Part shown: one piece after another, positions 33,377 through 56,779 of the stretch
How positions within the stretch are numbered: the first letter of the stretch is position 1
How the letters are laid out: the number at the start of each line of letters is the position of its first letter
Assembly: GCF_000337175.1 (NCBI RefSeq)
Contig: NZ_AOIJ01000086.1
Coordinates: 30,882 to 94,881, forward strand
Length of the DNA: 64,000 bases
From: Natrinema gari JCM 14663
Lineage (GTDB): Archaea > Halobacteriota > Halobacteria > Halobacteriales > Natrialbaceae
Reading direction: 5' to 3'
Program-made: the position numbers and the translations under genes
Notes under the pieces: model-generated
Seen by the model: the letters and a program-made list of their open reading frames with translations, nothing else
Database searches by the model: none
What the model was told of the DNA's origin: nothing

Positions 33377-33392
33377 TTTAGGCTAGCCTAAA
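33377..33392 (+). promoter_or_regulatory. Iron box: perfect 16-bp palindrome before siderophore-binding gene
   Basis: TTTAGGCTAGCCTAAA is a perfect palindrome ending 3 nt before the ATG at 33396. It matches the TTAGG..CCTAA operators bound by DtxR/SirR/Idr-type iron repressors, including those of haloarchaea. At this position repression in iron-replete cells is expected. Confidence 0.85.
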
Positions 33393-55297: not shown

Positions 55298-55313
55298 TTT
55301 AGGCATACCAAAG
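55298..55313 (+). promoter_or_regulatory. Possible imperfect iron box upstream of dpsA
   Basis: TTTAGGCATACCAAAG lies 56-71 nt before the dpsA start and keeps the left half (TTTAGGC) of the perfect palindrome at 33377 but has a weak right half. It is flanked by TTC and AAAGAA, giving extra symmetry. A role in iron control is plausible because Dps genes are often regulated this way. Confidence 0.35.
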
Positions 55314-55368
55314 AAAAGTTCTCGCATGGGAAGGTTTTAAGTGGAATGCGCGCGTATCGATGGATAGG

Positions 55369-55914
55369 ATGAGCACCCAACAGACCGTCCGCCAATCGGC
55401 AGACAGCGTCGAGGAGAACGCGCTTCGCCTCGAGCAGGACAAGGCCGAGCAGATCGTCGACGCGCTGAACACGGAACTGGCCAACTCGTACGTCCTCTAC
55501 CACCAGCTGAAGAAACACCACTGGGTCGTCGAGGGTGCGGAGTTCCTGCCCCTCCACGAGTTCCTGGAAGAGGCGTACGAACACGTCGAGGAAGGCGCTG
55601 ACGAAATCGCCGAGCGCGCCCAGGCGCTCGGCGGCGTCCCGGTCTCCGGGCCGTCGAACCAGGAAGAGCGCGCGACCGTCGAGTTCGAGGGCGAAGACGT
55701 CTACGACGTCCGCACGATGTTCGAAAACGACCTCGAGATCTACGGCGACATCATCGAGTCGATGCGCGACAGCATCGAACTCGCGGAGAACCTCGGCGAC
55801 CACGCGACCGCCGAGATCCTGCGCGATATCCTCGTCGAACTCGAGGAGGACGGCCACCACTTCGAGCACTACCTCGAGGACGACACCCTGGTGCTCGAGG
55901 AAGCGACTCACTGA
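55369..55914 (+). CDS. dpsA: DpsA ferritin-like DNA protection protein
   Basis: A 181-residue haloarchaeal DpsA: 'ALNTELANSYVLYHQLKKHH' (ferroxidase histidines and helix A), 'FLPLHEFLEEAYEHVEEGAD' and 'EIAERAQALGGVPVSGPS' are diagnostic. It stores iron and protects DNA from hydroxyl radicals. MSTQQTV at 55369 matches the family start; an ATG nine bases upstream is possible. A TATA-like GTTTTAAG lies about 30 nt before the ATG. A T6 tract after the gene (55971-55976) is a likely terminator. Confidence 0.96.
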   Translation: MSTQQTVRQSADSVEENALRLEQDKAEQIVDALNTELANSYVLYHQLKKHHWVVEGAEFLPLHEFLEEAYEHVEEGADEIAERAQALGGVPVSGPSNQEERATVEFEGEDVYDVRTMFENDLEIYGDIIESMRDSIELAENLGDHATAEILRDILVELEEDGHHFEHYLEDDTLVLEEATH

Positions 55915-56049: not shown

Positions 56050-56217
56050 TTACCGCTCGAGGTCGACGGTGTGATCGGTCGCGATCCACCCGTCGCTGTT
56101 GTTTCGTTCAGTAAAGACGGTCTTTCCGGGGCGGGTCTCGTGACTGCTTACGACCGCCGTCGGCTCCTCGAGTTCCTCGTCGAGTTCGGGCTCTTCCCTA
56201 CGGGCGGGTACGTCCAT
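56050..56217 (-). CDS. 55-residue acidic protein behind tandem iron boxes (DUF7331-like)
   Basis: A frame from ATG 56217 to TAA 56050 encodes a small protein with an acidic front ('EEPELDEELEEP') and the motif 'GKTVFTERNNSDGWIATD', characteristic of small haloarchaeal proteins of the DUF7331 type. Two iron-box-like palindromes sit directly before it (56227-56240 and 56253-56266), so it should be strongly iron-regulated. It has no cysteines and is cytoplasmic. The function is unknown; a regulator or RNA/protein-binding micro-factor in iron starvation is possible. Confidence 0.7.
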   Translation of the reverse strand: MDVPARREEPELDEELEEPTAVVSSHETRPGKTVFTERNNSDGWIATDHTVDLER

Positions 56218-56226
56218 CAGGTGGAG

Positions 56227-56240
56227 TTAGGCGAGCCTAA
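56227..56240 (-). promoter_or_regulatory. Iron box 1 before the 55-residue gene
   Basis: TTAGGCGAGCCTAA shows inverted symmetry with TTAGGC/GCCTAA arms and matches the DtxR/SirR/Idr-type operator; the same arms occur at 33377-33392. It ends 9 nt before the ATG, covering the transcription start. Confidence 0.75.
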
Positions 56241-56252
56241 TTCTAAAAAGGT

Positions 56253-56266
56253 TTTGGTCGACCTAA
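56253..56266 (-). promoter_or_regulatory. Iron box 2 before the 55-residue gene
   Basis: TTTGGTCGACCTAA contains a palindromic core GGTCGACC and one TTAGG-type half (minus strand). Its centre is 26 bp from that of iron box 1, which places the two sites on the same helix face for cooperative binding. The match is weaker than box 1. Confidence 0.5.
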
Positions 56267-56455: not shown

Positions 56456-56779
56456 ATGAGTTCACACGAGAACCGGTCACAGGGGGCACTAGGCCGACAC
56501 GGTCGGAGCCTGATCGCGTCCCTGTTCGGTGTCGAGCGGGGCCACGTCGAATCCCTCAGCTGGTCGCTCGGTAACCGCGTGACCGCCGACGCGGACGCGA
56601 ATCAGCTCTTCCGATTCGCCCATCAGCGGTCCGCCCGCTCGGTGACTGCCTTCGAGGTAACCGACTACACCTGCGTCCTCCGGCTTCGCACGCCGGTCGG
56701 CCGCGAGAAGTTCTACGGGATCGCGAACGCCGATATCGAGGCCCGGCCGGTTCCGGACGACTGGGTCAGAACGAACTGA
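56456..56779 (+). CDS. Hypothetical haloarchaeal protein (107 residues)
   Basis: A soluble 107-residue protein ('RHGRSLIASLFGVERGHVES', 'FEVTDYTCVLRLRTPVGREK') with one cysteine and no membrane segment. An AATATAGC element about 40 nt upstream (56413-56421) is a possible TATA box. It is followed 57 nt later by the macrodomain gene on the same strand; a functional link is possible but not shown. Confidence 0.65.
   Translation: MSSHENRSQGALGRHGRSLIASLFGVERGHVESLSWSLGNRVTADADANQLFRFAHQRSARSVTAFEVTDYTCVLRLRTPVGREKFYGIANADIEARPVPDDWVRTN

Follow-up and report, generated by a model that had tools for sequence, protein, structure and literature searches.

A small gene behind paired iron boxes and its genomic link to dpsA in haloarchaea

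A gene of 55 codons adjoins dpsA in the 64,000-nucleotide stretch of the Natrinema gari JCM 14663 genome that we analyzed as a whole (hereafter, the window), and immediately ahead of it lie two boxes that resemble iron operators. This arrangement raises the question of whether the gene is controlled by iron and, if so, what its product does next to the gene of a mini-ferritin. To our knowledge, small iron-responsive proteins of archaea have been little studied, and the exit of iron from Dps mini-ferritins is poorly understood.

Iron boxes around the promoter

A first, sequence-only reading of the window had placed two iron boxes 26 bp apart, center to center, directly before a tiny acidic protein. 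We recovered this arrangement, with TTAGGCGAGCCTAA as an exact palindrome and TTTGGTCGACCTAA carrying one mismatch:

56050 to 56217 (stop codon included), minus strand: gene of the 55-aa acidic small protein, DUF7331-like, with relatives in 125 of 125 genomes of its family
56227 to 56240, minus strand: proximal iron (DtxR-type) box TTAGGCGAGCCTAA, -23 to -10 from the ATG
56241 to 56249, minus strand: TATA-like element TTTTTAGAA, a putative promoter element, -32 to -24
56253 to 56266, minus strand: distal iron box TTTGGTCGACCTAA (minus strand: TTAGGTCGACCAAA), -49 to -36

On the minus strand, the promoter has the order TTAGGTCGACCAAA-ACC-TTTTTAGAA-TTAGGCTCGCCTAA-CTCCACCTG-ATG, with the distal box upstream of the TATA-like element, the proximal box between that element and the start codon, and the right half of the distal box covering the usual place of the BRE. 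The short distance from boxes and promoter to the ATG would fit a leaderless transcript. We counted the operator as TTAGGN4CCTAA, which we take to be the box consensus of the haloarchaeal DtxR-family regulon and which we checked by genome counts. Allowing one mismatch at most, we counted four sites in the window against 0.29 expected, a number that none of 100 shuffles reached. The looser pattern of up to two mismatches yields six sites against 5.28 expected, which is chance level, and it therefore carries no evidence. In the whole genome, we found 25 exact and 11 one-mismatch sites, where about 1.5 exact sites are expected from base composition. A coincidence of loose motifs is thus ruled out, given that exact and one-mismatch sites are above chance. 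The pair is indeed the densest iron operator in the window, as had been claimed, yet a tandem pair as such is ordinary in this genome because six others exist, spaced at 34 or 36 bp. The 26-bp spacing around a TATA-like element is the single instance in this genome and is kept in relatives.

Conservation of the boxes in related genomes, which the sequence-only reading had expected of a true iron operator, was found throughout the family. The proximal box is exact in 110 of 110 family loci and starts at -23 in 108 of them (-26 and -28 in the remaining two), the distal box is found with up to two mismatches in 97, and the TTTTAG columns of the TATA-like element are near-invariant. These 110 loci come from the 125 family genomes; the 15 omitted have mostly weaker matches but include some stronger ones, such as G042, G121, and G036. 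The end of the distal box in the family is mostly ACCAAA, not CCTAA, and is often retained where the left half of the box is gone; we read this end as a probable compromise with the BRE. Relatives of the gene are present in 353 of the 392 genomes of the order, and in a draw of 120 genomes from the phylum all 14 with a match belong to the order. Among 40 loci of the same order outside the family, chosen among the better matches and thus non-random, 38 have an exact proximal box and 26 a distal one. The earlier reading had also proposed looking for the box-plus-gene arrangement in other haloarchaea: an unbiased search with a strict DNA pattern of box, start, and ORF, blind to 47-aa forms and to Halorubrum copies with the distal box only, located it in 222 of 392 genomes and 69 of 95 genera (control pattern, 0). 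In 80 named loci, which overlap with the earlier ones and span Natrinema, Natrialba, Halorubrum, Haloarcula, Natronomonas, Haloplanus, and Haladaptatus species, the box is exact in 49, has one mismatch in 30, and is absent at that level in one. Among the named genomes, those of Natrinema hold the closest relatives. Start codons in these analyses were picked by a script, and those of L225, L241, L248, and L253 are probably mis-set. Several Halorubrum loci (e.g. L229, L253, and L262) contain a second boxed type, starting with STGDRIE or TTGDRIE, that has the distal box only and mostly no dpsA nearby.

The same box precedes genes with Peripla_BP_2, FecCD, and SBP_bac_6 domains, mostly 3 to 14 bp before the start codon. 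Specifically, the genes adjoining a box encode three Peripla_BP_2 proteins, two FecCD permeases, an SBP_bac_6 protein, and an ABC ATPase, as well as a class-III aminotransferase at least 72 bp from its box. One box lies upstream of a Fe_dep_repress (DtxR-family) gene, more than 75 bp from the start chosen for it. Other neighbors have no evident role in iron metabolism (glycosyltransferases, DUF5059, and DUF7551/7552). Within the window, a gene for a Peripla_BP_2 lipoprotein has an exact box (33378 to 33391) 4 bp ahead of its ATG. Elsewhere, at L138 (G000:C43:49800-65000), boxes ahead of glycosyltransferase, RGP, and Gluconate_2-dh3 genes cluster with an SBP_bac_6 transporter gene, possibly reflecting a response of surface sugars to iron.

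The operator occurs above chance, covers the promoter at a conserved position, and is found ahead of iron-uptake genes and of one DtxR gene in this genome, all of which is expected of a DtxR-type iron regulon. Because the operator is fixed and conserved across family and order, repression of the small gene by iron is very likely. We thus infer iron-dependent repression in vivo, alongside the computed coding status, operator places, and regulon membership. The excerpted text of one source names Idr, SirR, and TroR as haloarchaeal iron regulators of the DtxR family and describes palindromic boxes at the promoters of iron-uptake genes, as seen here (PMC11349517). Our literature searches found no paper under the name DUF7331 (the gene may figure under a locus tag in the main haloarchaeal or archaeal papers on DtxR regulons), none on haloarchaeal small proteins under iron starvation, none tying DtxR, haloarchaea, and iron to a TTAGG motif, and, for HVO_0536 to HVO_0538, a mention of HVO_0538 only.

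The neighboring dpsA gene and a possible target

The neighbor of the small gene is dpsA, as the sequence-only reading had noted; the two genes are convergent, and a one-mismatch box precedes dpsA:

55366 to 55914, plus strand: dpsA, mini-ferritin and proposed target (NCBIfam DpsA, NF041388, 293 bits; Ferritin, PF00210)
55299 to 55312, plus strand: iron box with one mismatch, some 70 bp ahead of the chosen start of dpsA and further upstream than its TATA-like element (an activator-like place)

In the fetched flanks, dpsA is convergent with the small gene in 93 of 110 family loci. Of the 40 six-kb loci outside the family, 33 contain it (convergent in 27, on the same strand in 4, and divergent in 2), compared with 5 loci for a DtxR homologue, 4 for a macro-domain gene, and 1 each for a 107-aa ORF and an aldehyde dehydrogenase gene. 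When all ORFs of these outside loci were clustered, what look like dpsA and frames overlapping it made up the top three groups (33, 32, and 24 loci), followed by a group of 16 loci. Among the named loci, dpsA lies within 3 kb in 43 of 80, and the Halorubrum 'STGDRIE' type is mostly without it. A distance of about 250 kb separates the two genes in one genome (G084).

We then compared the presence of the two genes across the 392 genomes of the order. Both are present in 349 and neither in 23, while 16 have DpsA only and 4 the small gene only (Fisher p = 6e-23, kinship ignored); in the 345 better genomes, the numbers are 316 with both, 16 with neither, and 12 and 1 discordant. A single deletion could remove both adjacent genes and thereby inflate this co-occurrence. 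A safer statement than p-values that ignore kinship is that seven genera (g48, g52, g54, g56, g70, g73, and g81) contain species with both genes and species with neither. Three of the four genomes with the small gene only are 70 to 88% complete. The genomes with DpsA only belong to one family in 15 of 16 cases (f17; the other to f4), and their DpsA is 52 to 61% identical to that of the window (7 loci, six genomes), against 61 to 70% where the small gene is present (8 loci); none of the seven DpsA-only loci that were read has an iron box with up to one mismatch. In five of these seven loci (L272 to L278; family f17, g45), an aldehyde dehydrogenase gene adjoins the diverged DpsA gene. Three DpsA-type genes lie in tandem in five genomes (G240, at L281, 2143 to 3792; G193, G257, G302, and G232), and in G240 and G302 they are right next to the boxed small gene. 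Overall, gene content and gene order speak for DpsA as the candidate partner of the small protein.

Two known systems help to frame what such a partner might do. MntR is a member of the DtxR family. In E. coli, the 42-aa protein MntS is repressed by metal-loaded MntR and made when manganese falls, and, according to the part of the source available, it is proposed to block the exporter MntP that is left over at that point (PMC4361602). The wiring proposed there, as far as that excerpt describes it, is the one that we propose here: a metal-repressed small protein that counters a product of high-metal conditions. The likeness is in this wiring and not based on alignment, since MntS concerns manganese and an exporter and is hydrophobic, whereas here we deal with iron, a storage protein, and an acidic protein. 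Bacterioferritin-associated ferredoxin (Bfd) is likewise small, made at low iron, and encoded beside a ferritin-type gene, whose product it relieves of its iron. In Bfd, cysteines hold a [2Fe-2S] cluster, whereas the small protein contains no cysteine and so fails as a ferredoxin; DpsA, for its part, is a mini-ferritin of the Dps type and no bacterioferritin. Even so, a small gene beside an iron-storage gene and co-present with it (93/110 and 33/40 loci; of 392 genomes, 349 with both and 23 with neither) supports a Bfd-like way of working, not membership of the Bfd group.

The excerpt of a review reports that DpsA of H. salinarum is downregulated under iron deficiency (PMC3600143). Because DpsA falls in this way and a one-mismatch box lies ahead of dpsA, control of both genes by one regulator in a reciprocal manner is suggested. 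From this hint and from the MntS/MntP wiring for manganese, we favor, tentatively, a role directed at DpsA, in which the small protein would be an iron-starvation antagonist of DpsA or its partner in iron release. When iron is plentiful, a DtxR-family repressor would sit on both sides of the TATA-like element and block initiation of the leaderless small gene. When iron falls, the repressor would leave and the 55-aa protein would be made, which may then target the DpsA built in times of plenty, either halting further iron uptake or aiding release of the store. The two genes would thus be wired reciprocally: at high iron, dpsA would be on while the small protein is off, and at low iron, the small protein would be on and leftover DpsA disarmed or emptied. 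Binding to DpsA and the direction of the effect are predicted parts of this scheme; the linkage and co-occurrence with dpsA are computed. We count against the DpsA-directed role the named loci that have no dpsA within 3 kb, the wide separation of the two genes in G084, the low confidence of the structural model, the 16 genomes with DpsA in which no relative of the small gene is detectable, and a dpsA box that is clear, with up to one mismatch, in only 38 of 126 readable upstream regions. More tentatively still, haloarchaea as a whole may keep a small protein dedicated to opposing a Dps mini-ferritin or to freeing its iron, wired reciprocally to that ferritin under one DtxR switch. With 353 of 392 genomes of the order carrying the gene, near-invariant operators, and the tie to dpsA, the idea offers itself to a direct test in model haloarchaea.

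The small protein may instead be an iron-starvation protein aimed elsewhere, for example at the DtxR repressor in a feedback loop or at an iron transporter, with its adjacency to dpsA being inherited gene order. We take this possibility seriously while considering it somewhat less likely: DtxR homologues near the gene in 12 of 80 named loci (mostly Halorubrum, and mostly 0.5 to 1.5 kb upstream on the same strand) and in the five outside loci, together with many boxed Halorubrum copies that have no dpsA within 3 kb, have to be set against a dpsA gene that is by far the commonest neighbor in the outside loci, occurs there in three different orientations, and co-occurs with the small gene in the genomes compared.

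The encoded protein

The small protein is acidic (15 D+E versus 6 K+R, pI 4.4), as had been read from the sequence. Its assignment to the DUF7331 type held in part. DUF7331 (PF24018) is its sole Pfam match and is matched at E ≤ 0.01 by 55 of 64 relatives, yet the window protein scores 25.1 bits, below the curated cut-off of 27. The unambiguous member of that family that the genome does contain (C82, 92.8 bits) lacks an iron box in the 120 bp searched, and we would place the boxed proteins in a group apart from DUF7331. The related remark that the gene is too small for routine annotation is true of one relative, which lacks an annotated feature, but not of a relative on a Haladaptatus plasmid, which is annotated as a hypothetical protein.

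V34, N40, and W44 are invariant in 64 sequences, and the C-terminal half as a whole is strongly conserved. This conservation and the tie to dpsA make it unlikely that the protein is an iron-sparing or general starvation protein without a single partner, such as a chaperone-like or metal-buffering acidic peptide, although the N-terminal half is acidic, variable, and poorly ordered in the model as such a peptide might be. The AlphaFold models are of low confidence (pLDDT 65.6 and 70.4) and depict a floppy N-terminus and a short hairpin, without a helix; a sequence search of the PDB gave one match at E 0.93.

Of the initial proposal of an iron-starvation micro-regulator, control by iron is strongly supported by the conserved boxes and the shared regulon, while the regulator part has fared poorly. 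A small protein that alters the expression of iron genes through DNA or a transcription factor would agree with the iron control and the small size, and with nothing more specific; Pfam (DUF7331 only) reveals no DNA-binding motif or known DNA-binding domain, the protein is acidic, and its model is free of helices, so that we regard this role as very improbable. The lack of cysteines rules out a zinc-finger or ferredoxin-like identity.

The ORF itself is coding. In a sample of 66 family genes of equal length, all 65 comparisons with the window gene gave a dN/dS below 1 (median 0.257, maximum 0.695), and codons differing by a single change do so 8,559, 4,542, and 29,096 times at codon positions 1, 2, and 3, with 25,302 synonymous and 16,895 non-synonymous changes. 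A non-coding ORF is ruled out by these counts. They also leave hardly any room for the view that the ORF is incidental, or that an RNA is what matters, and that the boxes serve a plus-strand gene (at 56456 or 56836), which we reject since the distance from box to small ORF is fixed (108 of 110 at -23) whereas the plus-strand genes lie at varying distances and, outside the family, are mostly absent, even if a macro-domain gene is divergent in 89 of 110 family loci. The plus-strand ORF at 56456 to 56779 encodes 107 aa, has no Pfam match, and is present in 32 of the 110 family loci.
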